A DNA stretch of 31,748 nucleotides from a virus: positions 1 through 31,748 of the IMG/VR virus record IMGVR_UViG_3300025141_000459, one strand, 5' to 3'. The first letter of the stretch is position 1. Each line of letters begins with the position of its first letter. A model generated the notes under the pieces. It was not told the origin of the DNA, did no database searches, and saw only the letters and a program-made list of their open reading frames with translations. This document shows positions 3,493 through 26,033 of this stretch, in pieces. A program made the position numbers and the translations under genes.

Positions 3493-3521
3493 AGTGTACT
3501 GGTTGTGTGTGACAATTGCAA
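3493..3521 (-). promoter_or_regulatory. Octamer-class promoter with partial -35
   Basis: Minus strand: -35 TTGCAA 3516-3521, octamer TGTCACAC 3507-3514 inside the spacer, -10 TACACT 3493-3498. Drives the AAA/VWA operon. Confidence 0.75.
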
Positions 3522-3529
3522 CTTCGTCA

Positions 3530-3793
3530 TCACATGTTGCTCACGGTGCCGTCGCCGTACACCTTGAGGAATATCTCGTCAAGGGTGTGTCGCTTCGCCC
3601 ATGGGACGACAACGACCTTGCCCTGTCTGTGGCCGACGACCGCTCCGACCTCGAAGCGATGGGCCTTGGTGGCGAGCCACGCCGCCTTGGCGATCTTGCG
3701 CGCCTCCTCAACGTAGGAGTGCTGTGCCTCGGGGTAGGGCTGCGGCCAGCGGCGGCGGTGCTCGTCGTAATACTGCTCCCATCCGCTGCTCAT
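3530..3793 (-). CDS. Hypothetical protein, 87 aa
   Basis: ATG at 3793 overlaps the stop of the previous gene (ATGA); a longer upstream reading would run into that gene. The sequence starts W-E-Q-Y-Y-D-E-H-R-R-R-W-P, then has an A/K-rich helix and a strand pair around GAVVGHRQGKVVVVPW. Not recognised. Second gene of the operon led by the 3790-4089 gene. Confidence 0.7.
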   Translation of the reverse strand: MSSGWEQYYDEHRRRWPQPYPEAQHSYVEEARKIAKAAWLATKAHRFEVGAVVGHRQGKVVVVPWAKRHTLDEIFLKVYGDGTVSNM

Positions 3794-4089
3794 GCCGACG
3801 CGTCGTTCGCGTAGGCTTCCCACTCCGCCTCGGCGTCGCCGGGAGTTGCGTTCAACTCCTCCAGCGCCGCCTCCTCGTCGGGGTCGAACTTGAATGTGAT
3901 TGTGGCATCCTCAGCAACGATGCTGACGATGTTCTTAGTGAGACAGCCGGGGATGTAAAGGCGCGTCAGCGCCGCCGCCGTTCCCTCTGGAGTACGGCAC
4001 TCCCGGTCCCATCCGACCCCGCTGCCGGGTAGGTCGTCGGGGTTGTCGGGGTCGAACTCGAATGTGATTGTGACTCTGTGTGTGCTCAT
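3790..4089 (-). CDS. Hypothetical acidic protein with duplicated F-D-P-D segment
   Basis: 99 residues. ATG at 4089 follows GAACC-AAGGA-GGTTC, the hairpin type ribosome site. Two copies of a T-I-T-F-x-F-D-P-D strand occur near the start and middle, hinting at an internal duplication. A related start, T-H-R-V-V-V-T-F-E, occurs in the protein at 9547-9798, so the two may be distant paralogues. Function unknown. Confidence 0.75.
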   Translation of the reverse strand: MSTHRVTITFEFDPDNPDDLPGSGVGWDRECRTPEGTAAALTRLYIPGCLTKNIVSIVAEDATITFKFDPDEEAALEELNATPGDAEAEWEAYANDASA

Positions 4090-4127
4090 GTGGTGAACCT
4101 CCTTGGTTCGTTGATGTGTGTATGGAG

Positions 4128-4149
4128 AGTGTAGGGGCCGGGTGTGACA
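4128..4149 (-). promoter_or_regulatory. Octamer-class promoter
   Basis: Minus strand TGTCACAC 4142-4149, 8 bp, TACACT 4128-4133; no recognisable -35. Confidence 0.7.
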
Positions 4150-4162
4150 GAGGGGCCGCTGA

Positions 4163-4411
4163 TCATGCGTTGGCCTTCACATAGGACTTGGCGTCGGCCA
4201 GCGTGACGAACTCCTTCGTGACGCCCGGAGGGCAGTGGTCGCCGTCCGGGAAACCCGTCAGTCTCAGTTCCCAAGCCCCGTAGCCGAACCGCCCGTAACT
4301 CTGGCGGGTGACGCATCCGACGCGGACCCCGTTGACGCATACGTCGCGCGTCGTATTTCTAGTGCCGCGAGTGTTGTCTTGCTTGACGGTCACTGTGATC
4401 GCCTCGGTCAT
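4163..4411 (-). CDS. Hypothetical protein, 82 aa
   Basis: ATG at 4411 shares TGATG with the stop of the upstream membrane-protein gene and has GAGGAGG eight bases upstream. A GTG at 4414 is an alternative. Beta-rich with a D-V-C-V-N-G-V-R-V-G-C segment and a Tyr/Gly-rich S-Y-G-R-F-G-Y-G-A-W. The C-terminal helix A-D-A-K-S-Y-V-K resembles small phage proteins that end in a repeated charged helix. No function assigned. Confidence 0.7.
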   Translation of the reverse strand: MTEAITVTVKQDNTRGTRNTTRDVCVNGVRVGCVTRQSYGRFGYGAWELRLTGFPDGDHCPPGVTKEFVTLADAKSYVKANA

Positions 4412-4560
4412 CACTTGGCCTCCTCTGCTGCTACGGTTTCGCGGTAGAGGCGAAGCGAGGGCACTCGGCCGGTGGTGACCAGAGAAACGGTCACCGCGTT
4501 GAGAACGAAGTAGGCGGCGAAGCCACCGACGACGAAGCCGATATGGAAGAGCGTGTCCAT
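4411..4560 (-). CDS. 49-residue single-span membrane protein (copy 1)
   Basis: ATG at 4560 follows the standard GAACC-AAGGA-GGTTC leader. Residues 5-30 form one transmembrane helix; the tail is basic then acidic (R-V-P-S-L-R-L-Y-R-E-T-V-A-A-E-E). A close paralogue with the same length and DNA similarity lies at 17205-17357. Both head short operons. Role unknown; probably inserted in the host membrane. Confidence 0.8.
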   Translation of the reverse strand: MDTLFHIGFVVGGFAAYFVLNAVTVSLVTTGRVPSLRLYRETVAAEEAK

Positions 4561-4597
4561 GTGTGAACCTCCTTGGTTCGTTGATGTGTACATAGGT

Positions 4598-4619
4598 AGT
4601 GTAGGGACCGGGTGTGACA
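4598..4619 (-). promoter_or_regulatory. Octamer-class promoter
   Basis: Minus strand TGTCACAC 4612-4619, 8 bp, TACACT 4598-4603. The octamer directly abuts a terminator hairpin at 4620-4637. Confidence 0.75.
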
Positions 4620-4637
4620 GGGAGGCTTGCGCCCCCC
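4620..4637 (-). terminator. Terminator hairpin with GCAA loop, fused to next promoter
   Basis: Minus-strand RNA forms a 7-bp stem (one G-U) closed by a GCAA tetraloop just after the 4649-4834 gene. Near-identical hairpins lie at 8466-8481 and 10847-10862. Confidence 0.6.
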
Positions 4638-4648
4638 TGCCAGCGGGA

Positions 4649-4834
4649 TCAGACCGCGTCCCGGTACCGCCAGTGAAGGGGCGACCAGCCGCGCGGGTTG
4701 TTGCAGAACGGCTCGTCGAAGCCCTCGCCCTCAAAGGCCTCGGACAGCAAGGTGCCGCCGACGCCGATCGTGAGTGGCTCGCAACACCCGTCGCACTCAA
4801 GAAGGAGTGCATCGGTGATGTGTTGGTTGTTCAT
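4649..4834 (-). CDS. Small cysteine protein beginning with the H-I-T-D-A-L segment
   Basis: 61 residues; ATG at 4834 after TTCACC-AAGGA-GGTGAA, a covariant version of the leader hairpin. It begins with Q-H-I-T-D-A-L-L-L-E, then C-D-G-C-C, and a later F-C. The start matches the protein at 8273-8407, which has the same segment twice, so the two are likely paralogues. Possible zinc binding through C-x2-C. Tandem promoters lie upstream at 4871-4949. Confidence 0.72.
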   Translation of the reverse strand: MNNQHITDALLLECDGCCEPLTIGVGGTLLSEAFEGEGFDEPFCNNPRGWSPLHWRYRDAV

Positions 4835-4870
4835 GTGTTCACCTCCTTGGTGAATCGCTTGTGTACCTAC

Positions 4871-4892
4871 AGTGTAGTGAGGGGGTGTGACA
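4871..4892 (-). promoter_or_regulatory. Octamer-class promoter (downstream of a tandem pair)
   Basis: Minus strand TGTCACAC 4885-4892, 8 bp, TACACT 4871-4876, about 40 bp before the ATG at 4834. Confidence 0.72.
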
Positions 4893-4927
4893 CTGGGTCT
4901 CTTGCCCGCTCAATCTGGGTACACCAC

Positions 4928-4949
4928 AGTGTAGGCAAGGCGTGTGACA
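4928..4949 (-). promoter_or_regulatory. Octamer-class promoter (upstream of a tandem pair)
   Basis: Minus strand TGTCACAC 4942-4949, 8 bp, TACACT 4928-4933. The surrounding 60 bp are closely similar to 8742-8801, so this tandem arrangement is duplicated. Confidence 0.7.
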
Positions 4950-4955
4950 TCTGGT

Positions 4956-4973
4956 GTGTGACATCGGTCACAC
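4956..4973. promoter_or_regulatory. CRP/GlxR-type palindrome
   Basis: GTGTGAC-ATCG-GTCACAC, perfect 7-bp arms, containing TGTGA-N6-TCACA, the consensus for CRP-family regulators. It lies just upstream of the tandem promoters. Confidence 0.6.
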
Positions 4974-4985
4974 GAGGCAAACCCT

Positions 4986-5010
4986 AACCCTCAAGTAGAG
5001 GTTGAGGGTT
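4986..5010 (-). terminator. AACCCTC/GAGGGTT hairpin, terminator-like
   Basis: Arms 4986-4994 and 5002-5010, 9 bp, 7-nt loop; minus-strand RNA continues AGGGTTTG. It separates the transglycosylase operon from the next promoter hub. Similar hairpins occur at 8843-8867 and 11455-11479. The remaining bases to 5115 show no gene. Confidence 0.5.
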
Positions 5011-5115
5011 CCTCGGCCTCGGCCAACCGATCCGCCGCCGCCTCCGCCAAGCCCCGCAGGTGATCCTCATAACCGCAAGAACAAACCTCGGGATAAGCAC
5101 ACCACGGGTAATGGC

Positions 5116-5787
5116 TCACGGGACTCTCCAACAAGACTCGCTCGGATACCAATGAGAAGACCCACCACCCTCATAAAACAACCACGCCGCAACCCGGACA
5201 TTCGCAACCGGGTCCATGATGTCCGCCCCAGCCAGCCCCGCCTTGACCGACCGCTCCTCCCAGAACTTCGGCAAATGCTGGAACCAACCCGAAGCCCCTG
5301 ATCGAACATGTCGAGCATCCGTTGAAGTTTCGCTAGGTCGAGCACTCGACTCGCAAACCGTTACACGCATCGCCCACGCACGGTCCTCGGGCAGAAAGAA
5401 CTCGTCGACAAGTTGCTTCAAAGTTCGAGGTTTTGGCTGAGGAGATGCAAACAACTGAAGAACTGCCTCGACTTCCGCCTGAAGTGCGTACATTTCTGCG
5501 CCAATGTCAACCGTCGCCGAATACGAAGGCCACGTCGTTGTTGTTGGAGGTCCGCTAGCGGCGAACAGCCCCGCTGGACGCACTGTTGATGCATGCGTGA
5601 TCAGGGCCGGGGCTGGCTGGGGAACAAAAGCAAAGAGCGCCTTTGGCTCCCCGTCGGTTGGAAGAGTGTTTACCTCGGCTTCAACCAGTTCTGTATTGAA
5701 GTCGCCGCTGATGGGCATGCCGGAGATGTTGGGCAACGAGCACGCAGTAAGCAATGCGACGAGCACGAGGCGGGCAAGGAACTTCAT
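5116..5787 (-). CDS. Lipoprotein lytic transglycosylase-like protein
   Basis: 223 residues. A short signal peptide ends in the lipobox LTAC with the acylated cysteine at 16. A proline/threonine-rich spacer (about 20-95) leads to a helical domain. Residues 125-220 look like an SLT/resuscitation-type fold: catalytic-type glutamate in V-C-E-S-S (E146), G-A-S-G-W-F-Q at 164-170, then D-P-V-A-N-V-R-V-A-A-W-L. It would be anchored to the outer face of the membrane and cut peptidoglycan. Last gene of a six-gene operon with ATGA coupling. Such an enzyme outside a lysis or tail cassette is unusual; a role in superinfection or wall remodelling is inference. Confidence 0.8.
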   Translation of the reverse strand: MKFLARLVLVALLTACSLPNISGMPISGDFNTELVEAEVNTLPTDGEPKALFAFVPQPAPALITHASTVRPAGLFAASGPPTTTTWPSYSATVDIGAEMYALQAEVEAVLQLFASPQPKPRTLKQLVDEFFLPEDRAWAMRVTVCESSARPSETSTDARHVRSGASGWFQHLPKFWEERSVKAGLAGADIMDPVANVRVAAWLFYEGGGSSHWYPSESCWRVP

Positions 5788-6056
5788 CGAATCAAGATGA
5801 TGGAATCGGCAAAGGCGCTAGACCGGACAGCGTCAACGACTTCGTCCTGCCATCCGCCCACGGCTTTGGATGGGAACGGAACGGTGGCATGGATATGCGA
5901 TAGCGACTGCGGGACGCTGCCGCGTCCGTTGTCGAGACGGTAGGCCACGGTTTGTTCAGGGGTTTGCCATGCGGTCAAGACGAGATGCACGGTGTCCTTC
6001 GTGTATTTGCTGTTGGGTCGCGATAGGCGTACCTCAACCGGCTCGTGAATCTGCAT
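5784..6056 (-). CDS. Hypothetical protein, 90 aa
   Basis: ATG at 6056 has AAAGG eight bases upstream and is preferred over an in-frame GTG at 6065. The sequence is beta-rich at first (V-E-V-R-L-S, V-H-L-V-L-T-A-W), with a W-Q-D-E-V near the end. It overlaps the transglycosylase gene by ATGA and follows the ADP-ribosyltransferase-like gene. Not recognised. Confidence 0.72.
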   Translation of the reverse strand: MQIHEPVEVRLSRPNSKYTKDTVHLVLTAWQTPEQTVAYRLDNGRGSVPQSLSHIHATVPFPSKAVGGWQDEVVDAVRSSAFADSIILIR

Positions 6057-6073
6057 CTCTCTCACCTTTCAGA

Positions 6074-6478
6074 TCAAGAACGGACAGCAGCCAAGTCAAT
6101 CTCAATGGCGAGTTCGATCATCGTTGAGTCGATCTCCCCGTCGTATTGGAAAGACTTGGTGTCTTCATGCCAGAACCCGGCAGCGTGGTCGCCGGATTCG
6201 TGCAGGAGTTCGGGGTCAAGCAGGTCTGTGTAGACCGCAAAGACGTAGAGCGTGTCGTGTTTGATCACGTTTGGCATCTGATGCACCACCCCGTTGATCT
6301 CCATTTCTTTCATCCCGTCGATCTCGTGGCGCAAAGCAATGAACTGTGCGGCATGAGCGGGTAGAGGGCCAGCGAGATAGATGCAGCCATCGAAGCCGGG
6401 CAGAAGCCCGTCGTCAATGATTGAATCGACCTTGCTCGGCCATGTTGCATGATACAGCACCGGAGGAACGGAGTCCAT
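6074..6478 (-). CDS. ADP-ribosyltransferase-like protein
   Basis: 134 residues; ATG at 6478 shares TGATG with the upstream stop. The order of motifs fits small ADP-ribosyltransferase folds (Tpt1/KptA, DarT and relatives). LYHAT at 8-12 is the histidine motif, I-I-D-D-G-L-L-P follows, CIYLAG at 32-37 is the tyrosine-strand motif, A-Q-F-I-A-L is a helix, and Y-D-G-E-I-D at 112-117 carries a late acidic residue. The family would move ADP-ribose from NAD+ to protein, RNA or DNA. The exact subfamily and target cannot be told. A host-takeover or anti-defence role is inference. Confidence 0.62.
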   Translation of the reverse strand: MDSVPPVLYHATWPSKVDSIIDDGLLPGFDGCIYLAGPLPAHAAQFIALRHEIDGMKEMEINGVVHQMPNVIKHDTLYVFAVYTDLLDPELLHESGDHAAGFWHEDTKSFQYDGEIDSTMIELAIEIDLAAVRS

Positions 6479-6720
6479 CAAGCGTCCTTCCGGGCTTCGA
6501 TTACGGACTTTCGAAGAGCACGGGAAGCAAGGCGACCCGATAGTCGGCTTTCGTTGAGCACCGTGACGCGTGGCAGTTCCACGACTTCGACATCGGTGCC
6601 CATGTCGTCGCATGGGATTTCCTCGTCCAAGGCGAGAGCCTGTGCTTTGGCGTCTTCCTCGTTCTCGGCCTCAAAGATGGCGTTCCATTTGTGACTGACG
6701 GTGACCTCGTAGTTGTTCAT
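6478..6720 (-). CDS. Hypothetical protein, 80 aa
   Basis: ATG at 6720 overlaps the upstream stop (ATGA). It starts N-N-Y-E-V-T-V-S-H-K-W, followed by a long A/E helix (A-E-N-E-E-D-A-K-A-Q-A-L-A-L) and a valine-rich strand. This resembles small phage proteins with a beta-alpha-beta fold. The C-terminal third is basic. No function assigned. Confidence 0.72.
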   Translation of the reverse strand: MNNYEVTVSHKWNAIFEAENEEDAKAQALALDEEIPCDDMGTDVEVVELPRVTVLNESRLSGRLASRALRKSVIEARKDA

Positions 6721-6899
6721 ACCGCCGCCAAACCCTGCTGTTCGACCGCCTCCCAAATCGCCAAGATGTCTTTCGGCAAGTTCTGGTCGTCGGGCACCAG
6801 TTGGAGCGCGATGCCGCACAAGGCGGCGTAGACCTCAGCCAAAGAGCGCAGCGCGATGACGGCGTCGTTTAGGATGTGTTGGCGTGATTCGGGGGTCAT
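6717..6899 (-). CDS. Small helical protein, 60 aa
   Basis: ATG at 6899 overlaps the upstream stop (ATGA) with GGAGGACTACCACA ahead of it. It is almost all helix, hydrophobic in the centre (A-V-I-A-L-R-S-L-A-E-V-Y-A-A-L), ending I-W-E-A-V-E-Q-Q-G. Probably a small oligomerising protein. Not recognised. Confidence 0.7.
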   Translation of the reverse strand: MTPESRQHILNDAVIALRSLAEVYAALCGIALQLVPDDQNLPKDILAIWEAVEQQGLAAV

Positions 6900-7120
6900 T
6901 GTGGTAGTCCTCCTTGGGTCTGCACCCAGTGGGTGCCGTTGTTGAGTTCTTTTAGTTCGCTGCGCCACCCCAACTTGCGGTCCATGAGGAACTCGATGGC
7001 GTCTAGACACTCTTCGTCGTCCACTCCGGTGTCGTTCAGATGGATCACGCGCTCGTTCAACACGTTCAAGCAGTAGTTGCACATGGAGATGTTGTGGTGG
7101 AGAAACTGTGCGTACCTCAT
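6896..7120 (-). CDS. Hypothetical protein, 74 aa, operon leader gene
   Basis: ATG at 7120 follows the standard GAACC-AAGGA-GGTTC ribosome site and the promoter at 7157-7178. Contains H-H-N-I-S-M-C-N-Y-C, a possible metal-binding C-x2-C next to two histidines, then an acidic helix D-D-E-E-C-L-D-A-I-E-F-L-M-D. First of six coupled genes ending with the transglycosylase. Function unknown. Confidence 0.72.
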   Translation of the reverse strand: MRYAQFLHHNISMCNYCLNVLNERVIHLNDTGVDDEECLDAIEFLMDRKLGWRSELKELNNGTHWVQTQGGLPQ

Positions 7121-7416
7121 GTGGGTGAACCTCCTTGGTTCGTGGTTGCTGCTATAGGTGTAGAGAGGGGGTGTGACACATCGTCACGCCTGATGGCCTC
7201 CGTTCCTCCGGTGCCCAACGTGTCGTCTCTTCGCATCTTCACCACTCCGGGTGCGATGCCGATCTTGTGGGCGGCGTCCATGATGTCGATGAGACGGACT
7301 TCCCCGGCGTCCAGCATGCCGAACACTTTGGGATAGACATCCCACTTGTCGTAGATGCCGTCGCCCCACTTCTTGAAGATGGGGTCCAGCATGAGAGAAG
7401 CGTTGTAGGCGTTCAT
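7117..7416 (-). CDS. Hypothetical protein whose 3' end contains the next promoter
   Basis: 99 residues; ATG at 7416 shares TGATG with the upstream stop. The first 70 residues look like a normal protein (D-P-I-F-K-K-W-G-D-G-I-Y-D-K-W...). The last 24 codons read straight through the octamer, the -10 and the ribosome site of the next operon and end in its ATGA. Either the promoter cassette was inserted into, or extended, the 3' end of this gene. Function unknown. Confidence 0.65.
   Translation of the reverse strand: MNAYNASLMLDPIFKKWGDGIYDKWDVYPKVFGMLDAGEVRLIDIMDAAHKIGIAPGVVKMRRDDTLGTGGTEAIRRDDVSHPLSTPIAATTNQGGSPT
7157..7178 (-). promoter_or_regulatory. Octamer-class promoter inside an upstream gene
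   Basis: Minus strand TGTCACAC 7171-7178, 8 bp, -10 TACACC 7157-7162. In frame within the 7117-7416 coding region. Confidence 0.68.
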
Positions 7417-7592
7417 CAGACTTCACCGAGGTCATGGGCGGCCAGTTCTTCGGCCAGTTTGTCAAGGACCGGGTAGTCTTCGGCCAAGGTCGGGTGGAAG
7501 TTGAGGAGGCGGGCTAGTGCGTGAGCCTCGTAAAAGTCCAGCACCATCACGGTGCTCGTGGGGTCCCCTGCCAATATTGCTACCGCAGCCAT
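7416..7592 (-). CDS. Small helical protein, 58 aa
   Basis: ATG at 7592 shares TGATG with the upstream stop, which fixes the start inside a much longer open frame. Contains V-M-V-L-D-F-Y-E-A-H-A-L-A-R-L-L-N-F and a charged helix L-D-K-L-A-E-E-L-A-A. Unknown. Middle gene of three from the promoter at 7849. Confidence 0.7.
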   Translation of the reverse strand: MAAVAILAGDPTSTVMVLDFYEAHALARLLNFHPTLAEDYPVLDKLAEELAAHDLGEV

Positions 7593-7810
7593 CAGACTTC
7601 CAGTCCGGGGTAGGTCTTGCGAACGAGGGTACTCAGCGGGGTTCCCGCGATCACGCGGGCGCGCAGTTCGTCGGGGGTGTATTCCCATCGCTGTATTGAG
7701 GTGCCATCGCCCTCCACCCCGTCCTCGTCCTCCAAGTTGACGAGGACAGCCTCGTCGATGTGGATGAGTGTGCCGGTGCCGATGTGGGCGATGTAGATTT
7801 CGCTGCTCAT
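7592..7810 (-). CDS. Hypothetical protein, 72 aa
   Basis: ATG at 7810 follows GGACC-AAGGA-GGTTC (one G-U pair in the leader stem). Strand-rich start (I-Y-I-A-H-I-G-T-G-T-L-I-H-I-D-E), an acidic loop, then a helix from P-D-E-L. Leads a three-gene unit. Not recognised. Confidence 0.72.
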   Translation of the reverse strand: MSSEIYIAHIGTGTLIHIDEAVLVNLEDEDGVEGDGTSIQRWEYTPDELRARVIAGTPLSTLVRKTYPGLEV

Positions 7811-7848
7811 AGGTGAACCTCCTTGGTCCGTTTGTTATGTATGTAGGT

Positions 7849-7877
7849 AGTGTAGCGGTTGTGTGTGACAACCGCAA
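7849..7877 (-). promoter_or_regulatory. Octamer-class promoter with partial -35
   Basis: Minus strand -35 TTGCGG 7872-7877, octamer 7863-7870, TACACT 7849-7854. Overlaps the far end of the 7879-8037 gene closely. Confidence 0.72.
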
Positions 7878-7878
7878 A

Positions 7879-8037
7879 TCAGACTCGGTTTTCCTTGCGG
7901 TCCAGTTCGGCACCGCAGATGTTGCACTTGTCGTCGTAGGCGGCCAGTACGGCCTCGCCCATAAAGTGCCGCGGGCAGTTCCAGCATTTCACAAAGAACT
8001 TTGATAGGCCGCGCTTGGCAGCGCCGCCCCCGTTCAT
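7879..8037 (-). CDS. Zinc-ribbon protein, 52 aa
   Basis: ATG at 8037 overlaps the upstream stop (ATGA). C-W-N-C and C-N-I-C are 18 residues apart, a classic two-knuckle zinc ribbon, with basic residues on both sides (K-R-G-L-S-K-F-F-V-K). Likely binds nucleic acid or a protein partner. Third gene of the unit beginning at 8407. Confidence 0.78.
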   Translation of the reverse strand: MNGGGAAKRGLSKFFVKCWNCPRHFMGEAVLAAYDDKCNICGAELDRKENRV

Positions 8038-8276
8038 GCCGTCACCTCCCGCATCATGGCGGCGAGTGCCAGTGCCAACTCGGACGGGCCGCATAGGTGG
8101 CTGACCGGAAGGTCGCATAGTTCTTCGTGGTCGAAGAAGGCGGCGCACTTAGGCACCTCGTTTTCGGGGGCGTCGCGGTCGAACGGCACGCTGGGGGTGC
8201 CCGCTTCGACGCTGGCGATCCTCGCGCGGGCGAGGGCCATCCGCTCTTCGCTGGTTGCTTCGCAGTAGATGCTCAT
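8034..8276 (-). CDS. Hypothetical cysteine-containing protein, 80 aa
   Basis: ATG at 8276 overlaps the upstream stop (ATGA). An N-terminal helix (E-E-R-M-A-L-A-R-A-R-I-A-S-V-E) is followed by a segment with K-C-A-A-F-F, E-L-C-D-L-P-V-S-H-L-C-G, in which three cysteines and a histidine could bind zinc, then a hydrophobic helix. Not recognised. Confidence 0.72.
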   Translation of the reverse strand: MSIYCEATSEERMALARARIASVEAGTPSVPFDRDAPENEVPKCAAFFDHEELCDLPVSHLCGPSELALALAAMMREVTA

Positions 8277-8407
8277 GTTGTGGGCCTCCCGGCGCACTTC
8301 TCGCCCACGCGCGCCAGCGGCGAGCCGCAGTCCGGGCACTCGACGAGTATGAGTGCATCGGTGATGTGCGGCACGATGAGTGCATCGGTGATGTGTTCGT
8401 TGTCCAT
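8273..8407 (-). CDS. 44-residue zinc-knuckle protein with tandem H-I-T-D-A-L-I duplication
   Basis: ATG at 8407 after GAGCC-GGGA-GGTTC. The N-terminus contains H-I-T-D-A-L-I twice, encoded by a 27-bp direct repeat, then C-P-D-C and a later C. The protein at 4649-4834 has one copy of the same segment, so this gene probably derives from the same ancestor by in-frame duplication. First gene of a three-gene unit. Role unknown. Confidence 0.7.
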   Translation of the reverse strand: MDNEHITDALIVPHITDALILVECPDCGSPLARVGEKCAGRPTT

Positions 8408-8442
8408 GTTGTGAACCTCCCGGCTCGTTGGTGTGTATCAGT

Positions 8443-8464
8443 AGTGTAGGGACCGGGTGTGACA
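8443..8464 (-). promoter_or_regulatory. Octamer-class promoter
   Basis: Minus strand TGTCACAC 8457-8464, 8 bp, TACACT 8443-8448, abutting the terminator at 8466-8481. Confidence 0.72.
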
Positions 8465-8465
8465 A

Positions 8466-8481
8466 GGGGGCTTGCGCCCCC
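8466..8481 (-). terminator. GCAA-loop terminator hairpin fused to next promoter
   Basis: GGGGGC stem with GCAA loop in minus-strand RNA, directly before TTGTCACAC. Ends the 8494-8649 transcript. Confidence 0.6.
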
Positions 8482-8493
8482 CTGCCAGCCGGG

Positions 8494-8649
8494 TCAGACG
8501 ACGCCGGGGTCGAGGTCAGCGTCAGCGTCCGTAGGCGCTGGTAGGCCGACTCCCTCAGCCTCGGCGAGGATGGATCGCACGGCCTGACCGATTCCAACGT
8601 CGGTCATTTCGTGGATGTCCTCCGCCTCGAAGCGGACAAGGATTTCCAT
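8494..8649 (-). CDS. Small acidic protein, 51 aa
   Basis: ATG at 8649 after TCACC-TAGGA-GGTGA, another covariant leader hairpin. Begins M-E-I-L-V-R-F-E-A-E-D and ends in an acidic run T-D-A-D-A-D-L-D. Single-gene transcript between its promoters and its own terminator. No family recognised. Confidence 0.7.
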   Translation of the reverse strand: MEILVRFEAEDIHEMTDVGIGQAVRSILAEAEGVGLPAPTDADADLDPGVV

Positions 8650-8687
8650 GGGTTCACCTCCTAGGTGAGTTGATGTGTTGTACCTAC

Positions 8688-8709
8688 AGTGTAGGGACCG
8701 GGTGTGACA
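8688..8709 (-). promoter_or_regulatory. Octamer-class promoter (downstream of a tandem pair)
   Basis: Minus strand TGTCACAC 8702-8709, 8 bp, TACACT 8688-8693. Confidence 0.72.
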
Positions 8710-8756
8710 ACCGCACTTCTCGGCGTGTCTCGCCCCGTCAATCTGGGTACACCAGA

Positions 8757-8778
8757 GGTGTAGGGCAGGCGTGTGACA
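8757..8778 (-). promoter_or_regulatory. Octamer-class promoter (upstream of a tandem pair)
   Basis: Minus strand TGTCACAC 8771-8778, 8 bp, -10 TACACC 8757-8762. Lies in the segment duplicated from about 4913-4972. Confidence 0.65.
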
Positions 8779-8785
8779 AACGGTG

Positions 8786-8801
8786 TGTGACATTAGTCAC
8801 A
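8786..8801. promoter_or_regulatory. CRP/GlxR-type palindrome
   Basis: TGTGACATTAGTCACA, perfect TGTGAC/GTCACA arms, eight bases upstream of the promoter octamer. Confidence 0.6.
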
Positions 8802-8809
8802 AGGGACAT

Positions 8810-8838
8810 CGAACGCATGTTCGTCGAACACCTGTTCG
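8810..8838. promoter_or_regulatory. Two adjacent LexA (SOS) boxes
   Basis: CGAACGCATGTTCG at 8810-8823 and CGAACACCTGTTCG at 8825-8838 both match the actinobacterial SOS-box consensus exactly (GAAC-N4-GTTC with flanking C and G). They lie upstream of the 8494-8649 promoters. Confidence 0.7.
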
Positions 8839-8842
8839 CCCT

Positions 8843-8867
8843 AACCCTCTACCTGAGGTTGAGGGTT
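8843..8867 (-). terminator. AACCCTC/GAGGGTT hairpin, terminator-like
   Basis: Second locus of this 25-bp inverted-repeat element; outer arms 8843-8849 and 8861-8867. Followed leftward by the SOS/CRP hub. Confidence 0.45.
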
Positions 8868-8870
8868 GCT

Positions 8871-8930
8871 CCGCCGCACGCGCACGCGCACGAGCACGAG
8901 CACGCGCACGAGCACGCGCGCGAGTCCCGC
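8871..8930. repeat. Alternating purine-pyrimidine CGCACG tract
   Basis: About 50 bp of CGCACG/CACGAG units ending in CGCGCGAGTCCCGC. The same tract and end occur at 11524-11573 and a short form at 14126-14145. Alternating composition could adopt Z-DNA; that is inference. Confidence 0.6.
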
Positions 8931-8934
8931 TGCG

Positions 8935-9105
8935 TTAGTAAGCCTCGACCCGTCCCGGCTTCAGGTCCATAAACGGTTGAACATGAACCTTCCACCAGTC
9001 GCCATACGGGACTCCCTGATCCCCGCAACACCAACACTCATATCCCGCCTTCGACATCCATAACACTTGACACTCCGGACAGATAAGTGTTAGGGGAACA
9101 TTCAC
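8935..9105 (-). CDS. Small zinc-ribbon protein, 56 aa
   Basis: Open frame on the minus strand with TAA at 8935-8937. It holds C-P-E-C and C-W-C-C-G 17 residues apart, then aromatic-rich Y-G-D-W-W-K-V-H. The pattern is typical of a zinc ribbon, so I call it despite the unclear start. GTG at 9105 is the best candidate, with AAAGG close upstream. The frame is closed by a stop further upstream and holds no ATG before the C-P-E-C motif. Confidence 0.5.
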   Translation of the reverse strand: MNVPLTLICPECQVLWMSKAGYECWCCGDQGVPYGDWWKVHVQPFMDLKPGRVEAY

Positions 9106-9206
9106 TTCGCCTTTGTAGCAGACCTTGCGAATCCAGCAAGGAAGTGCAGTATCTTTTCAAATATGAAGAGAGACCTATCCATGGCATGCGGGGCTAGCCC
9201 GGACTC

Positions 9207-9353
9207 GTGAAAAAAACAAGTAGGTCCGCAAAGCGGTACATGAAAAAGAAGCGCAAGCAAGCCGAACGGCAGGCGCAAAAAAGCAAACGAGAGAAGAAGG
9301 CCGCCAACTTATGGGCGGCTCGGGAGTTCGCCGGTCAACTGCCGAGGATGTGA
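9207..9353 (+). CDS. Possible small, very basic protein, 48 aa
   Basis: GTG at 9207 overlaps the stop of a 15-codon plus-strand frame (9163-9210, GTGA). The product is lysine/arginine-rich in its first 32 residues (S-A-K-R-Y-M-K-K-K-R-K-Q-A-E-R-Q) and ends L-W-A-A-R-E-F-A-G-Q-L-P. This suggests a nucleic-acid-binding helix. An internal ATG at 9240 is an alternative. The 3' end overlaps the convergent gene at 9335-9550 by 19 bp. No ribosome site or promoter is clear, so this could be chance. Confidence 0.4.
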   Translation: MKKTSRSAKRYMKKKRKQAERQAQKSKREKKAANLWAAREFAGQLPRM

Positions 9354-10288: not shown

Positions 10289-10326
10289 GTGTCGAACCTC
10301 CTTGGCTCGTTGGTGTGTATGTAGAG

Positions 10327-10348
10327 AGTGTAGGGGCGGGGTGTGACA
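10327..10348 (-). promoter_or_regulatory. Octamer-class promoter, fused to a terminator arm
   Basis: Minus strand TGTCACAC 10341-10348, 8 bp, TACACT 10327-10332. The first bases of the octamer are also the end of the hairpin at 10347-10376. Confidence 0.72.
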
Positions 10349-10376
10349 GCCGGAGAGCCGATACTCTCTCCGGCTG
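10347..10376 (-). terminator. 11-bp stem-loop terminator
   Basis: Perfect arms 10347-10357 and 10366-10376, 8-nt loop, between the 10391-10786 gene and the next promoter. Confidence 0.6.
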
Positions 10377-10390
10377 CACACCCGGCGGGA

Positions 10391-10824: not shown

Positions 10825-10846
10825 AGTGTAGCGATGGGGTGTGACA
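10825..10846 (-). promoter_or_regulatory. Octamer-class promoter
   Basis: Minus strand TGTCACAC about 10839-10846, 8 bp, TACACT about 10825-10830; abuts the terminator at 10847-10862. Confidence 0.72.
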
Positions 10847-10862: not shown

Positions 10863-10874
10863 CGCCTCACCGGG

Positions 10875-11096: not shown

Positions 11097-11118
11097 AGTG
11101 TAGCGATTGTGTGTGACA
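11097..11118 (-). promoter_or_regulatory. Octamer-class promoter
   Basis: Minus strand TGTCACAC 11111-11118, 8 bp, TACACT 11097-11102. Confidence 0.72.
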
Positions 11119-11354: not shown

Positions 11355-11376
11355 AGTGTAGGGAGGGGGTGTGACA
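11355..11376 (-). promoter_or_regulatory. Octamer-class promoter of a leaderless gene
   Basis: Minus strand TGTCACAC 11369-11376, 8 bp, TACACT 11355-11360; six bases separate the -10 from ATG 11348. Confidence 0.75.
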
Positions 11377-13071: not shown

Positions 13072-13093
13072 AGTGTAGTGATTGTGTGTGACA
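13072..13093 (-). promoter_or_regulatory. Octamer-class promoter
   Basis: Minus strand TGTCACAC 13086-13093, 8 bp, TACACT 13072-13077. Confidence 0.72.
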
Positions 13094-13878: not shown

Positions 13879-13907
13879 AGTGTACCAGCGGGGTGTGACA
13901 ACGTCAA
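13879..13907 (-). promoter_or_regulatory. Octamer-class promoter with TTGACG -35, leaderless start
   Basis: Minus strand -35 TTGACG 13902-13907, octamer 13893-13900, TACACT 13879-13884; spacer 17 bp; predicted start at 13872, the A of the ATG. Confidence 0.85.
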
Positions 13908-14339: not shown

Positions 14340-14361
14340 TGTCACACCCCGTGGCTACACT
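14340..14361 (+). promoter_or_regulatory. Octamer-class promoter, plus strand
   Basis: TGTCACAC 14340-14347, 8 bp, TACACT 14356-14361, serving the small gene at 14402. Confidence 0.75.
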
Positions 14362-14756: not shown

Positions 14757-14778
14757 AGTGTAGTCGTCGGGTGTGACA
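14757..14778 (-). promoter_or_regulatory. Octamer-class promoter (divergent pair, left)
   Basis: Minus strand TGTCACAC 14771-14778, 8 bp, TACACT 14757-14762. Forms an 11-bp inverted repeat with the plus-strand octamer at 14797. Confidence 0.78.
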
Positions 14779-14796: not shown

Positions 14797-14818
14797 TGTC
14801 ACACCCCATCGCTACACT
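14797..14818 (+). promoter_or_regulatory. Octamer-class promoter (divergent pair, right)
   Basis: TGTCACAC 14797-14804, 8 bp, TACACT 14813-14818, for the 14857 gene. Confidence 0.78.
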
Positions 14819-17108: not shown

Positions 17109-17130
17109 GGTGTAGGGACGAGGTGTGACA
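17109..17130 (-). promoter_or_regulatory. Octamer-class promoter
   Basis: Minus strand TGTCACAC 17123-17130, 8 bp, -10 TACACC 17109-17114; heads the seven-gene operon. Confidence 0.68.
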
Positions 17131-17396: not shown

Positions 17397-17425
17397 AGTG
17401 TAGTCGACTGGTGTGACGGTGTCAA
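17397..17425 (-). promoter_or_regulatory. Octamer-class promoter with consensus -35
   Basis: Minus strand -35 TTGACA 17420-17425, variant octamer CGTCACAC 17411-17418, TACACT 17397-17402, spacer 17 bp. The block is similar to 13879-13920, including an upstream TTGTCAAGAAAAC. Confidence 0.85.
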
Positions 17426-20104: not shown

Positions 20105-20126
20105 AGTGTACCGACGGTGTGTGACA
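20105..20126 (-). promoter_or_regulatory. Octamer-class promoter
   Basis: Minus strand TGTCACAC 20119-20126, 8 bp, TACACT 20105-20110, serving the 462-residue protein. Bases 20130-20319 contain no gene I can support. Confidence 0.75.
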
Positions 20127-20937: not shown

Positions 20938-21431
20938 GCTGCAAATTCCTCGGCGTACATTTCCTTCGCACATTCCAAGCAGGTGCCGGGCGCTGTCAGC
21001 CATTTGCCTTCGCTTCGTGCCGCCATTGCTGAATACATCTGCTTCCGGCGAAGGTACTTGCCTTCACGACCACGGTCGCAGTCCAGACAAATGTAGAACC
21101 ACGCCCTTCGGCGCAGGAACCACATGTAGACGGGGGAGTTCGCCAACCACAGGTTGCGCCATCCCGGCTGTCGAAGCGTCTTCCTGTCACGGGCCTGCTT
21201 CTTCACGACAGCATCAAGCCATCGGTCTACATCATTTGGAGTAACCCCCGCAGCGTTGCGGCCCCAACCGTAGTCGGGGTTGTAAAGGTCGTGATCCTCG
21301 TCGGTGAAGTCCAACATGATCTTGGTGTAGAGATCGTTAGCAAAGGCGAGTTGCCCACGCACGGTGCGCGGGAGTTTCACGGGCTTAGCCCATATGTGTT
21401 TGCCTGTGTGGTAGTTCTTGATAAACCTCAT
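20934..21431 (-). CDS. Zinc-binding protein, 165 aa
   Basis: ATG at 21431 overlaps the upstream stop (ATGA). C-L-D-C-D-R-G-R-E-G-K-Y and C-L-E-C-A-K-E-M near the end form a treble-clef-like pair with basic residues between. The N-terminal part has N-x-D-Y-G-W-G-R-N-A-A-G-V-T. Possibly a small nuclease or DNA-binding protein, but the HNH residues cannot be assigned with confidence. Confidence 0.72.
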   Translation of the reverse strand: MRFIKNYHTGKHIWAKPVKLPRTVRGQLAFANDLYTKIMLDFTDEDHDLYNPDYGWGRNAAGVTPNDVDRWLDAVVKKQARDRKTLRQPGWRNLWLANSPVYMWFLRRRAWFYICLDCDRGREGKYLRRKQMYSAMAARSEGKWLTAPGTCLECAKEMYAEEFAA

Positions 21432-21781
21432 GCGAGGGTGGGCCAGACGTTGCCGTAATGAGCAACCGCTCGCACGAGGTCAAGTTCGGTGATCTCGTCG
21501 AATCCGATTCCGGCGACAGCGTGGAACTTTGCGCCCAAGCGTGGCTCCTCAGGAAGTGGCGAAATCTGTACGACATCGCCGACCGACAACGACCGCTTCT
21601 CGAACTGGCAGTTGTATTCCGATCCGTCCACGGCGTTGTTCTGCCGGAAGATCGTTTCCAGTCCGACTTCGGTTTCGTCGGCGAGGTACGAGTAGGCGAA
21701 CTCCAGCCCATCGTGTTCGGGGTCGAAGTTGTGGAGGAAGTCGCCGTTCTGGCGATGGAAGATGGTGACCTTGTGGTTCAT
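21428..21781 (-). CDS. Hypothetical protein, 117 aa (S-L-S-V-G-D-V-V motif)
   Basis: ATG at 21781 after GGGAGG. E-F-A-Y-S-Y-L-A-D-E, I-F-R-Q-N-N-A-V-D-G-S-E-Y and R-S-L-S-V-G-D-V-V-Q-I recall the YodL-like small proteins of mobile elements, in which a cluster of N and R-S-L-S-V-G-D is conserved. Function unknown. First gene of the five-gene operon. Confidence 0.72.
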   Translation of the reverse strand: MNHKVTIFHRQNGDFLHNFDPEHDGLEFAYSYLADETEVGLETIFRQNNAVDGSEYNCQFEKRSLSVGDVVQISPLPEEPRLGAKFHAVAGIGFDEITELDLVRAVAHYGNVWPTLA

Positions 21782-21818: not shown

Positions 21819-21840
21819 AGTGTAAGAGGCGGCTGTGACA
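21819..21840 (-). promoter_or_regulatory. Octamer-class promoter, variant, fused to terminator
   Basis: Minus strand TGTCACAG 21833-21840, 8 bp, TACACT 21819-21824. The octamer is part of the hairpin at 21828-21858. Confidence 0.62.
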
Positions 21841-21866: not shown

Positions 21867-22334
21867 TCAGGCGTGAGTGAGCCACCCCTCGGGGGTGTTG
21901 GGGAGGCTCACGAAGTTGTCGCGCAGGTGGTCAATCCCGTGGTTGAGCAGGATCGCTGCCGTGCGCCCATTGCCGTCGATGAACGGATGAATCTTGAGGA
22001 ACTCAATGACGAATGCCTCAAGGTCCGTTCCGAACAGTCCGGACTCGCACAGGTTGCGCATCAGGCGAGGAATCTCCATCGCTGGCGCTCCCTTGTTGCC
22101 GTTGGCGAAGATGACCGGCGTGTGCCGATACCAGCCGCCGCCCAACGCGGGTGCAGCGTCCATGTTGATCTGTTGGATCGTCTCCTCCAGATCGAAGCCC
22201 CAACTCCATCCGCAGTTCCGCTTGGCGCGGGTCCATGCGTTGAGGAAGTCAACGACGGCGTGCGCGTCTCCACCTTGGCGGGTGACTTCGTCGGCAGCCC
22301 AGTTCAGTTCTTTGAGGGTGTAAATGATGTCCAT
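21867..22334 (-). CDS. Fic-domain protein (AMPylase/Doc family)
   Basis: 155 residues from ATG 22334. The Fic motif HPFIDGNGR is complete at 116-124, with catalytic H116, D120 for the metal and R124. T-P-V-I-F before it fits the flap. Fic proteins usually transfer AMP (or, in Doc, phosphate) to a target Ser, Thr or Tyr. No inhibitory S/T-x3-E helix is evident, so it may be regulated in trans or by transcription. The promoter at 22341-22369 puts the start of RNA on the ATG. The gene does not share a promoter with its neighbours. Confidence 0.88.
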   Translation of the reverse strand: MDIIYTLKELNWAADEVTRQGGDAHAVVDFLNAWTRAKRNCGWSWGFDLEETIQQINMDAAPALGGGWYRHTPVIFANGNKGAPAMEIPRLMRNLCESGLFGTDLEAFVIEFLKIHPFIDGNGRTAAILLNHGIDHLRDNFVSLPNTPEGWLTHA

Positions 22335-22340
22335 GTAATA

Positions 22341-22369
22341 AGCATACAGGAGAAGTGCGCTGGTGTCAA
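22341..22369 (-). promoter_or_regulatory. Canonical promoter TTGACA-N17-TATGCT, leaderless start
   Basis: Minus strand -35 TTGACA 22364-22369, -10 TATGCT 22341-22346, six bases to ATG 22334. No octamer. Overlaps the end of the 22366 gene. Confidence 0.82.
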
Positions 22370-22641
22370 GGGGATGTTGTTGGATTGGTGCGGAGCCAAG
22401 GCACAATCTCAGCCAAATCCAACACACCATCATTGCGCTCGGAATCACGCACCATCAACATCCATCCCCCGGCATTCGAAATCAGCAGCCCAGTCCACTC
22501 GGCATGGCGAATCGCCCACCCACTCGACAGGCTTTCATCGAGGCGCTCAGCCCGGAGTAGTCCCGAACTGGCCTCGACGAAGTCGAGCACCTCCTCGACC
22601 GCTGGAGGAACAATCCCGTTTGGTGCTCGGGACTCACTCAC
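22366..22641 (-). CDS. Hypothetical protein, 91 aa
   Basis: GTG at 22641, one base after the upstream stop, no ribosome site. E-E-V-L-D-F-V-E-A-S-S-G-L-L-R then G-W-A-I-R-H and W-T-G-L-L-I-S-N-A-G-G-W-M-L-M-V. Reads as a real globular protein. Third gene from the promoter at 23164. Function unknown. Confidence 0.65.
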   Translation of the reverse strand: MSESRAPNGIVPPAVEEVLDFVEASSGLLRAERLDESLSSGWAIRHAEWTGLLISNAGGWMLMVRDSERNDGVLDLAEIVPWLRTNPTTSP

Positions 22642-23510: not shown

Positions 23511-23869
23511 ATCAACTCTTCGATTTCCCCTCGACTTCAGAACCTGATGCAGATGAGATCCTTCAGGTATTTGCCCATTGGGTGCTCACATGCAGAACAC
23601 CAACTCGTGGGCCGAAACCCAAGTTGACAGATAAACGACGCAAGCGAATCGCCAAGGCGCTGAAGGATTACGACCTAGATACATGCCTTCAGGCCATCGA
23701 AGGAGTGCAGTATTCTTCATGGCACATGGGCGGCAACCCGCAAGGGAAGAAGTATGACGACCTCGAACTGATCCTTCGAGATGAGAAGCACATCGAGATG
23801 TTCGCAACTTATGCTGCCGAAGTGAAGAGCACAGCCGAAGACTTTGAAACGTGGATGCGGGACTCGTGA
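23507..23869 (+). CDS. Replication-organiser-like protein, 120 aa
   Basis: ATG at 23507 overlaps the WhiB stop (ATGA). E-I-L-Q-V-F-A-H-W-V-L, then P-K-L-T-D-K-R-R-K-R-I-A-K-A-L-K-D-Y, then A-I-E-G-V-Q-Y-S-S-W-H-M-G and L-E-L-I-L-R-D follow the order of phage replisome-organiser or primosomal proteins that bind DNA next to a loader. The inference rests on pattern plus position before a loader and a primase-helicase. Confidence 0.7.
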   Translation: MNQLFDFPSTSEPDADEILQVFAHWVLTCRTPTRGPKPKLTDKRRKRIAKALKDYDLDTCLQAIEGVQYSSWHMGGNPQGKKYDDLELILRDEKHIEMFATYAAEVKSTAEDFETWMRDS

Positions 23870-24333
23870 ACCCAGAGGAAACCCGGAAGGCCGTGAAGGT
23901 TTTGGCGACTAACTGGTCGCAGCCGACGCAAGGTCCGAGTTTCGATGAGCGATGTGTTGTTTGGCACAGGTACTTGCAAGACCTCAATCTTTCTGATGTT
24001 ATTGCTGCCATTGATCGAATCATCGTGACTGATCAGCCTTGGATGCCGAGAGTTGGTCAAGTTCGGCGAGGAGTAATCGATAGAAGTGTCGAAGATCCTG
24101 CTCCTCCGCCAGCCGAAGCGTGGCAGCAACTGCGCACGAGCATCGAGGCCGTCGAGTCCGGGTTAGCCCCGCCGAAGGTTCACGAGGTGGTGGCCTCGAC
24201 GATGAAGAAGTTCGGCGGAATGGTCACGGCGCTGCGGACCAACAATGATCGCGAGTTGTTCCTCAAGACCTACGAAGTGGATCGGCAGGAGTGGGAACAC
24301 CAACTGTATGAACTCGGCCATGACAACACCTGA
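23866..24333 (+). CDS. Helicase-loader-like protein, 155 aa
   Basis: GTG at 23866 overlaps the previous stop (GTGA). The stretch A-V-K-V-L-A-T-N-W-S-Q-P, F-D-E-R-C-V-V-W-H-R-Y-L-Q-D-L and W-M-P-R-V-G-Q-V-R-R resembles helicase loader/inhibitor proteins of phages (G39P-like in outline). The C-terminal half is helical. Overlaps the primase-helicase start by 14 bp. Assignment is by pattern and context. Confidence 0.6.
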   Translation: MNPEETRKAVKVLATNWSQPTQGPSFDERCVVWHRYLQDLNLSDVIAAIDRIIVTDQPWMPRVGQVRRGVIDRSVEDPAPPPAEAWQQLRTSIEAVESGLAPPKVHEVVASTMKKFGGMVTALRTNNDRELFLKTYEVDRQEWEHQLYELGHDNT

Positions 24334-26008
24334 AGTCGAAGTCATCCTTGGCAAACTGAGGAAGGTCAGCAAGACTGGCAGCGGATGGCAAGCCTGCTGT
24401 CCTTGCAGAGATGATGACAATAACCCGACTTTGACTGTTGGTTTGGGCAACGAAGACCGTGTTCTGCTCAACTGCCATCGTGGCAACCCATGCAACATCG
24501 ATGAGATATTGGATTCGCTCAACTTGACAATGACGGATCTGTTCCCCACGAAGCAAGAAACACAGAAGTCGAAGCCGAAGCGTAGACATGTCGAAGACTA
24601 TGACTATCAGGATGCAGATGGAAACCTGATCTTCCAAGTCCAACGTTTTGTAGATGAGAACGGAAAGAAGACGTTCACTCAACGTCGCCCAGACGAAGGG
24701 GGTGGCTGGACGTACAGCACCCAAGGAGTCCCGAAGCCGCTGTACCGCTTACCTCAGGTGCTCGCCGCGAAGAGTAACGACGGAATCATCTTTGTGGTTG
24801 AGGGAGAAAAGGATGTTCATGCTCTCGAACGTCTGGGTTGTACGGCAACTTGTAATCCGGGTGGCGCTGGCGGACCCGGTCAACGGAAGTGGACTGACCT
24901 CCACACTCAAACACTTGCTGGAGCGAAAGTTGTTGTTTGCGCAGACAATGATGAGCCGGGCGAGATCCATGCTCGTCATGTTGCTGAAGAACTAACGAAG
25001 GTCGAAGCAAAAGTCAAGGTGGTTCGGCCGCCGAAGCACAGCAAAGATGTTGCTGATCTGCTGGGGAAAGGCGGAGAACTCGCCGACCTCGTGCCACTCG
25101 ACGATGATTCTCCTCAAGACGCGTTCGAGGAGTTCTATCAGGAACTGGCGGGACTCGATGGGGATGTCGAGGCGAAGTTCCGCAAAGCCCAGATGTTGCT
25201 TGAAGCCCGGAACATTCCTGATGATGCAGACAGGGGAAGGCTGGTTTATTGGTCATCGTTCCTGAAGGAAGATGCCGACGACGCTTACGACTGGCTGATT
25301 CCAAACTTGCTGGAACGACAAGAACGTGTGATCGTGGTGGCAGCCGAAGGTGTGGGCAAAACCGTCCTTGCAAGGCAGGTCGCCCTCATGTCGGCTGCTG
25401 GCATTCACCCATTCAAGCGGGATGCGATGCCACCCATTCGCACGTTGATGTTCGATTTCGAAAACCCCGAGCGAATCATCCGCCGAACCTCACGCAAAAT
25501 CCACCATTCGATCAAGATGTTCAAGAAGTCGCAAGAAGTTGACGCACATCTCGTGATCAAACCGGACGGCGTCAATCTGCTCGCTGCCCCGGATCGAGCA
25601 CTCATCGTCGAATACGTTGAGTCGATACGTCCAGACCTCGTGCTCCTTGGCCCGATCTACAAGTCGTTCATTGATCCGGGCGGCCGGACGGCTGAATCTA
25701 TTTCAGTTGAGGTGGCAAAGTTCCTTGACATGATCAGGTCCGAGTACAACTGTGCGCTGTGGCTCGAACATCACGCTCCTCTTGGGTCCGGCAGCCATCG
25801 GGACTTGCGGCCCTTCGGCTCAGCGGTGTGGTCGAGGTGGTCCGAGTTCGGGATTGCTTTGCATCCTGATCTGACTGCGCCGGGGTTGGTGGAAGTGAGG
25901 CATTATCGGGGGATGCGCGATGAACGGGAGTGGCCGACTGGGCTGAAGCGAGGCGAGCAGTGGCCGTTCGAGCCGACTGGATTCACCTCAATGCCAACAA
26001 ACCCTTGA
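24320..26008 (+). CDS. Primase-helicase: zinc finger, TOPRIM and RepA-like P-loop domain
   Basis: 562 residues from ATG 24320; an ATG at 24308 is an alternative and neither has a ribosome site. Cysteines 26, 27, 29, 52 and 58 and H53 form a primase-type zinc module. EGEKD at 161-165 and C-A-D-N-D at 207-211 are the TOPRIM acidic motifs. AEGVGKT at 342-348 is Walker A, with L-V-L-L-G-P near 440-445 as a likely Walker B strand, as in RepA-type hexameric helicases (AAA_25). It would unwind and prime DNA at the phage fork. Last gene of the operon. Confidence 0.9.
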   Translation: MTTPEVEVILGKLRKVSKTGSGWQACCPCRDDDNNPTLTVGLGNEDRVLLNCHRGNPCNIDEILDSLNLTMTDLFPTKQETQKSKPKRRHVEDYDYQDADGNLIFQVQRFVDENGKKTFTQRRPDEGGGWTYSTQGVPKPLYRLPQVLAAKSNDGIIFVVEGEKDVHALERLGCTATCNPGGAGGPGQRKWTDLHTQTLAGAKVVVCADNDEPGEIHARHVAEELTKVEAKVKVVRPPKHSKDVADLLGKGGELADLVPLDDDSPQDAFEEFYQELAGLDGDVEAKFRKAQMLLEARNIPDDADRGRLVYWSSFLKEDADDAYDWLIPNLLERQERVIVVAAEGVGKTVLARQVALMSAAGIHPFKRDAMPPIRTLMFDFENPERIIRRTSRKIHHSIKMFKKSQEVDAHLVIKPDGVNLLAAPDRALIVEYVESIRPDLVLLGPIYKSFIDPGGRTAESISVEVAKFLDMIRSEYNCALWLEHHAPLGSGSHRDLRPFGSAVWSRWSEFGIALHPDLTAPGLVEVRHYRGMRDEREWPTGLKRGEQWPFEPTGFTSMPTNP

Positions 26009-26033
26009 CGTTGTCACACCTCCGTGCTACACT
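26005..26033 (+). promoter_or_regulatory. Octamer-class promoter with TTGACG -35 for a small RNA
   Basis: -35 TTGACG 26005-26010, octamer 26012-26019, TACACT 26028-26033; spacer 17 bp. Predicted start about 26040. Overlaps the stop of the primase-helicase gene. Confidence 0.82.

Follow-up and report, generated by a model that had tools for sequence, protein, structure and literature searches.

A repeated promoter element in an actinophage record is probably a PafBC-type DNA-damage promoter of Acidimicrobiia

What reads an octamer that recurs at one fixed distance from the -10 hexamer of many small phage promoters? The window analysed here is the whole of IMG/VR virus record IMGVR_UViG_3300025141_000459 (31,748 bp, 58.7% G+C); it is part of a larger actinophage, and the record is incomplete. 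An original prediction, made from the letters of the window, described 24 promoters sharing TGTCACAC-N8-TACACT and proposed either a repressor covering the spacer, as at the stoperators of mycobacteriophages, or an activator or alternative sigma factor replacing the -35. Based on the results below, we think it quite probable that the element is a damage promoter of the PafBC (RecA-independent, RecA-NDp) type in its Acidimicrobiia form, and that the phage has an accessory regulon that depends on host PafBC.

The element occurs in 24 copies with a single spacing. Exact TGTCACAC-N8-TACAC(T/C) was found 22 times in the window (19 on the minus strand and three on the plus strand), and two further copies have one mismatch in the octamer (CGTCACAC at 17418 and TGTCACAG at 21840). 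The TGTCR core of TGTCACAC is at -26. A scan allowing up to three mismatches gave 31 matches, compared with 3.95 in shuffled sequences (shuffle maximum 9), and the reversed pattern, used as a control, gave none. In all 24 copies there are 8 nt between the octamer and a TAnnnT -10, which is TACACT in 21 and TACACC in three (7178, 8778, and 17130). In a census of octamers with a downstream -10, a gap of 8 bp was found 23 times and the runner-up gap only twice. A near-consensus -35 (at least five of six positions) was present only at 13900, 17418, and 26012, leaving 21 of the 24 without one, and the mean number of -35 matches in the window was 2.46 versus 2.27 after shuffling. The number of copies, the fixed spacing, the three TACACC hexamers, and the three promoters with TTGAC(A/G) are all as originally predicted.

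The elements are placed as promoters of accessory genes. Using gene calls from our own simple predictor, we found that 20 of the 24 elements have a called start no more than 60 bp downstream, whereas random placement gave a mean of 2.2 and a maximum of 8 in 5000 trials; the motif is thus not equally frequent away from gene starts. The distance from the end of the -10 to the gene start is mostly 31-40 bp, and 23 of the 24 elements lie outside called coding sequences. A 21st element (14778) is followed 33 bp downstream by a 23-amino acid (aa) open reading frame (ORF) that is preceded by a Shine-Dalgarno sequence. The genes behind the elements are small and mostly of no known family; the products that can be named include a MoxR/CobS-like AAA ATPase, a dual-specificity-phosphatase-like protein, and DUF3846, DUF4241-like, and YodL-like proteins. 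No element lies directly before the genes for the primase/helicase and the SNF2 helicase, which are on the plus strand. This placement bears out the description of a dispersed, single-spacing element serving accessory genes and one small RNA. The features are as follows.

3493..3514, minus: -26/-10 element, before the MoxR/CobS-like AAA ATPase gene 2740-3456
4128..4149, minus: -26/-10 element, before small ORF 3790-4089
4598..4619, minus: -26/-10 element adjoining a terminator-like GC hairpin, before ORF 4411-4560
4871..4892, minus: -26/-10 element, before ORF 4649-4834
4928..4949, minus: -26/-10 element, second promoter in tandem with 4892
7157..7178, minus: -26/-10 element with TACACC, before ORF 6896-7120 and within the 3' part of ORF 7117-7416
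7849..7870, minus: -26/-10 element, before ORF 7592-7810
8443..8464, minus: -26/-10 element adjoining a terminator-like GC hairpin, before ORF 8273-8407
8688..8709, minus: -26/-10 element, before ORF 8494-8649
8757..8778, minus: -26/-10 element with TACACC, second promoter in tandem with 8709
10327..10348, minus: -26/-10 element adjoining a hairpin, before ORF 9995-10288
10825..10846, minus: -26/-10 element adjoining a terminator-like hairpin, before ORF 10391-10786
11097..11118, minus: -26/-10 element, before a basic 61-aa ORF (10875-11060) conserved in related phages
11355..11376, minus: -26/-10 element, leaderless-type start of ORF 11124-11354
13072..13093, minus: -26/-10 element, before DUF3846 ORF 12543-13034
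13879..13900, minus: -26/-10 element with -35 TTGACG, leaderless-type start of phosphatase-like ORF 13102-13872
14340..14361, plus: -26/-10 element, before ORF 14402-14503
14757..14778, minus: -26/-10 element divergent from 14797, before the 23-aa ORF 14652-14723
14797..14818, plus: -26/-10 element divergent from 14778, before ORF 14857-15003
17109..17130, minus: -26/-10 element with TACACC, before DUF4241-like ORF 16634-17077
17397..17418, minus: -26/-10 element with octamer CGTCACAC and -35 TTGACA, before ORF 17205-17357
20105..20126, minus: -26/-10 element, before 462-aa ORF 18676-20064
21819..21840, minus: -26/-10 element with octamer TGTCACAG, before YodL-like ORF 21428-21781
26012..26033, plus: -26/-10 element with -35 TTGACG, before a tRNA-like RNA without an ORF of its own
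26041..26217, plus: putative tRNA-like RNA (acceptor-like and T-arm-like stems), then an intrinsic terminator

The same element precedes recA and other repair genes in Acidimicrobiia. A scan of prokaryote genomes led to a metagenome-assembled genome (MAG) of Ilumatobacter, of the class Acidimicrobiia (hereafter the class), with two matches. Searched across whole genomes, TGTCACAC-N8-TANNNT occurs nine times in this MAG and six times in an Acidimicrobiia MAG, with no match to the reversed control in either. In both MAGs it lies before recA, and it also precedes genes for sbcD, SSB, a DEDDh exonuclease, and several DUF222 proteins. Seven further class genomes, chosen for their recA site so that recA in seven of seven is expected, held 21 sites (reversed control, 0); the other genes behind these sites are radA, rmuC, yifB, and genes for a DEDDh-type exonuclease, a PD-(D/E)XK nuclease, and DUF222/HNH-like proteins. 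Among 25 usable recA upstream regions of the class, the exact octamer with TANNNT at a gap of 8 was present in 12 and a one-mismatch form in six; two further regions have TGTGACAC at the same gap, and the gap was 8 in 12 of 13 octamer/-10 pairings. By our arithmetic, the 11 fixed letters would occur by chance in a 550-bp region in about 1 in 8,000 genomes. The spacers of phage and host promoters are alike (CCCGTCCC; CCCCTCCG), and host promoters also match a -35 no better than shuffled sequence does (2.16 versus 2.22). In the recA regions of 18 genomes from across the phylum, TGTCACAC was found in none, and several have TGTCAGTG or TGTCGGTG, the classical TGTC(A/G)GTG, at the same position. 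Judged from these upstream regions, TGTCACAC is the Acidimicrobiia form of the -26 element.

The host genes also indicate where transcription probably begins. Where the element precedes host DUF222 genes, these begin 7 bp after the -10, and in the window 11376 and 13900 each have an ATG 6 bp after the -10, as for leaderless mRNAs, so that the predicted transcription start is 6-7 bp past TACACT. This agrees with the approximately 7 bp expected at the outset.

The element matches the promoters read by PafBC, and nearly all of the tested genomes that carry it have PafBC-type pairs. Damage promoters of mycobacteria that are independent of LexA and RecA have the consensus tTGTCRgtg-8nt-TAnnnT (PMC5656591). 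There, the helix-turn-helix (HTH) of PafB sits on the -26 motif, that of PafC contacts domain 4 of sigmaA, and single-stranded DNA (ssDNA) on the WYL domains activates the complex (PMC11804915). The window element shares with them the TGTCR start, the 8-bp gap, TAnnnT, independence from a -35, and the position at recA; it differs in ending with CAC rather than gtg and in the approximately 24 copies in this phage, which serve accessory rather than repair genes. WYL domain matches were found in 11 of 12 site-bearing class genomes tested, mostly as adjacent (tandem) pairs. When two PafB-like proteins and one PafC-like protein were compared with the PDB, they matched only PafB and PafC of M. smegmatis and A. 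aurescens (7p5x, 9fnd, and 6sj9). The WYL family had no match in 16 phage records, several of them longer than 70 kb, and the window proteins scanned had no HTH or WYL match. Because host PafBC pairs are present and no phage WYL protein was found, a host reader is the simplest account. Of the mechanisms proposed originally, an activator replacing the -35 is thereby supported, and we can assign it to the PafBC class, which acts by sigma adaptation.

Related phage contigs carry the same arrays. With up to one mismatch, 23 sites with the same octamer and gap were found in a 53.9-kb contig (G002); a 20-kb contig (G001) has 13 sites and a 53-kb contig (G003) has seven, so the fixed-spacing pattern recurs in related phages. 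G001 and G002 share with the window the AAA ATPase (60-73% identity) and a VWA/CobT-like protein (36-56%), and G003 has only distant homologues of window proteins. Among 80 viral loci found by means of the AAA protein, the gap distribution peaked at 8 (44 cases), with 9 next highest. The -35 is near the shuffled level in the window, G001, and G003, and in G002 and at locus L370 the octamer stands together with a TGN extended -10 and a good -35. When viral contigs were scanned with the plain 22-bp pattern, most matches were single, at about the chance level for the amount of sequence scanned, and only multi-copy contigs were used.

Several observations weigh against a PafBC-dependent phage regulon. 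The three letters after TGTCR are CAC, not gtg. This is probably a lineage variant because Acidimicrobiia recA promoters also carry CAC; gtg is written in lower case, i.e., as the weaker part, in the published mycobacterial consensus (PMC5656591). One genome with a recA site (G091) had no WYL match, and it may be incomplete. We infer that PafBC would read TGTCACAC in Acidimicrobiia. The exact site is present in only 16 of the 80 AAA-protein loci, and many relatives with a similar AAA protein are without the array. Three window sites and most of those in G002 and L370 have a good -35 and/or a TGN extended -10, so an activator might not be needed at some copies. The window has no tRNA and no prophage or CRISPR link to a host, and among CobT-like homologues in Acidimicrobiia genomes there was no motif-bearing prophage. 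From promoter type alone we infer an Acidimicrobiia-type host.

A reader made by the phage is the closest competitor to host PafBC. T4 middle promoters have a MotA box at -30 and use AsiA, and MotA is phage-encoded. They resemble the window promoters in being a group of phage promoters at which a site for an activator takes the place of the -35 contact with sigma domain 4, and they differ in that MotA is phage-made and its box is nearer the -35, whereas the window promoters are most likely read by a stress activator of the host. A non-WYL activator encoded by the phage could bind the octamer in a MotA-like manner, its likeness to host recA promoters being mimicry or descent. Its gene could lie outside the window because the record is incomplete, and the window has many small ORFs without known function. 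However, the octamer and gap already drive host repair genes, so a host reader exists, and the scans described above gave no HTH or WYL match among the window proteins scanned and no WYL match in the 16 phage records; we consider such an activator unlikely. An alternative sigma factor replacing the -35 is also unlikely, as sigma regions 2 and 4 do not fit an 8-bp gap and the -10 hexamer has the ordinary form TAnnnT.

The octamer could instead be the operator of a phage immunity repressor within the spacer. Cluster A stoperators are 13-bp GGTGGMTGTCAAG-like sites that are also found away from promoters. The sites of cluster A phages (L5/TipsytheTRex) are, like those in the window, short and asymmetric, with approximately 25 per genome (PMC9283540), and scattered asymmetric sites would suit a repressor because those of cluster A bind such sites as monomers (PMC9283540). 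In G002 the octamer is, moreover, one base from the good -35. But the cluster A sites have another sequence, a difference noted from the start, and are not bound to one promoter spacing. The window sites lie only at promoters, the distance to the gene start is the same for nearly all of them, and most are without the -35 that a simple repressed promoter needs. The identical element is at host recA and repair genes, and it is common to the diverged phages G001, G002, and G003, whereas repressor specificities drift. The stoperator-type repressor of the original prediction is therefore very unlikely. That these are ordinary constitutive sigmaA promoters spread with a duplicated promoter and ribosome-binding-site module might explain why the downstream sequence (ACCTACATACACA..AAGGAGGTTCAC) is similar at many sites and why there are paralogous promoter-gene pairs (4619/4411-4560 and 17418/17205-17357). 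We regard this as highly improbable: conservation is higher in the octamer than elsewhere in the promoter, and the octamer is the same in G001, G002, and G003 with quite different flanks and is also on host repair genes. Host CRP/GlxR, finally, could use the octamer as a half site of TGTGA-N6-TCACA, and there are three full or near-full dyads near 4963, 8792, and 11432. The remaining sites are half sites only, in one fixed orientation, and the host genes with the element are for DNA repair rather than a CRP set, so we give CRP/GlxR almost no credence.

With PafBC as the reader, a mechanism carried over from mycobacterial work would be as follows. Host RNA polymerase with sigmaA would halt at the -10. 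Host PafBC, activated by ssDNA on its WYL domains, would insert between the promoter and sigmaA domain 4, with the PafB HTH on the -26 element and the PafC HTH on sigma4; the PafC-sigma4 contact would stand in for the -35 contact, and transcription would start 6-7 bp past the -10. The inducing ssDNA might come from replication of the phage, from breakdown of the host DNA, or from earlier damage. The phage accessory operons would be switched on along with the host repair regulon, and the -35-bearing promoters at 13900, 17418, and 26012 could fire earlier or without activation.

PafBC is the known master regulator of the mycobacterial DNA-damage response. We see about even chances that ssDNA made by infection acts through host PafBC on approximately 20 phage takeover operons as well as on host repair genes; the array would then be a middle-gene switch that times itself without a regulator from the phage, and several actinophage lineages would have acquired it separately. 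If so, these phages would read the host ssDNA alarm directly, with no repressor cleavage as in lambda-type induction, and this would explain how dozens of tiny phage operons without a -35 could be coordinated. We found no report of phage genes under PafBC in the literature searched, which lacked most subscription papers. What appears to be new is that a phage regulon is built on a host promoter class already known, with a -26 sequence particular to a lineage. For Acidimicrobiia, an environmental class remote from the mycobacteria used as models, the octamer on recA is a candidate -26 element, and the element could be a host-prediction signal for uncultured phages.

Two other mycobacterial systems resemble the element in part. 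The start-associated sequences and extended start-associated sequences (SAS/ESAS) of cluster K phages are dispersed, mostly one-way elements just before gene starts, as are the window sites (PMC3203893), and their reader is not known; they consist of GGGATAGGAGCCC and 17-bp inverted repeats unrelated in sequence to the window sites. In M. smegmatis, SiwR is a WYL activator that acts at -26 under genotoxic stress (PMC10693628), and its site differs from the window element in being a GGA triplet in a palindrome at a single operon.

Megablast of 3000-17500 against cultured phages had no match, there was no exact site with TANNNT in eight cultured actinophages that carry related genes for primase or DUF932 proteins, and the classical TGTCRGTG formed no arrays in 18 cultured actinophages (three scattered matches in two phages). 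Single matches to the element in Exiguobacterium, Butyricicoccus, and other genomes were taken as chance. In an Acidimicrobiia genome (L278), the gene behind the element encodes a small LysM protein that recalls SOS inhibitors of cell division of the YneA type. The AAA gene is the marker of a large group of contigs from uncultured phages, up to 160 kb long (80 loci kept), and its relatives in cultured phages are only distant (CobS of cyanophages). In the window it is paired, on the minus strand, with a CobT/VWA-like gene (1217-2743, and 2740-3456 for the CobS/MoxR-like AAA gene). A Fic/DOC-family protein is encoded at 21867-22433 (minus strand), and 4411-4560 and 17205-17357, also on the minus strand and each behind an element, encode paralogous membrane-like proteins of 49-50 aa (MDTLFHIGF.VGGF).

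Variants of the site were seen in several viral contigs. At L130 and L156 (G002/G019) there are facing, divergent pairs of TTGACA-N-TGTCNNAC-N5-TGC-TATACT promoters about 50 bp apart, repeated several times. At several sites in G003 (L133-L134), an inverted repeat, AAGGGTGTGGCAC..GTGTCACACCCTT, lies directly before the -10 and has the octamer as its right arm. Three viral contigs of 35-39% G+C (G012, G014, and G017) have TGTCA(C/G)AC-N8-TANACT sites, one of them directly before a gene starting MAHELE, like the window DUF932 protein, which suggests the same promoter class in other hosts.

The RNA from the 26012 promoter resembles a tRNA mimic, with an acceptor-like stem (GCAAGGGA/TCCCTTG), a T-arm (GCGGGTTTGATTCCCG), an enlarged D-arm-like GCCCC..GGGGC, and one more hairpin before the terminator; a homologue at L022 has a canonical T-arm (GGTTCGATTCC). 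ARAGORN made no call, no Rfam family matched, and the z-score of the minimum free energy was only -1.3.

On the minus strand, 4949/4892 and 8778/8709 are two paralogous double promoters. An extra TGTCACAC lies 14 bp upstream of each outer promoter (4949 and 8778) and forms one half of a dyad of the GTGTGAC-N4-GTCACAC type (4963 and 8792), and a third similar dyad is at about 11411-11432; these dyads could be CRP-like sites or sites for a second reader. Terminator-like GC hairpins (e.g., GGGGGGCGCAAGCCCCC) directly adjoin the octamer at 4598-4660, 8443-8500, 10327-10380, and 10825-10880 (minus strand), so terminator and promoter would be one module there, with the -35 position inside the stem.

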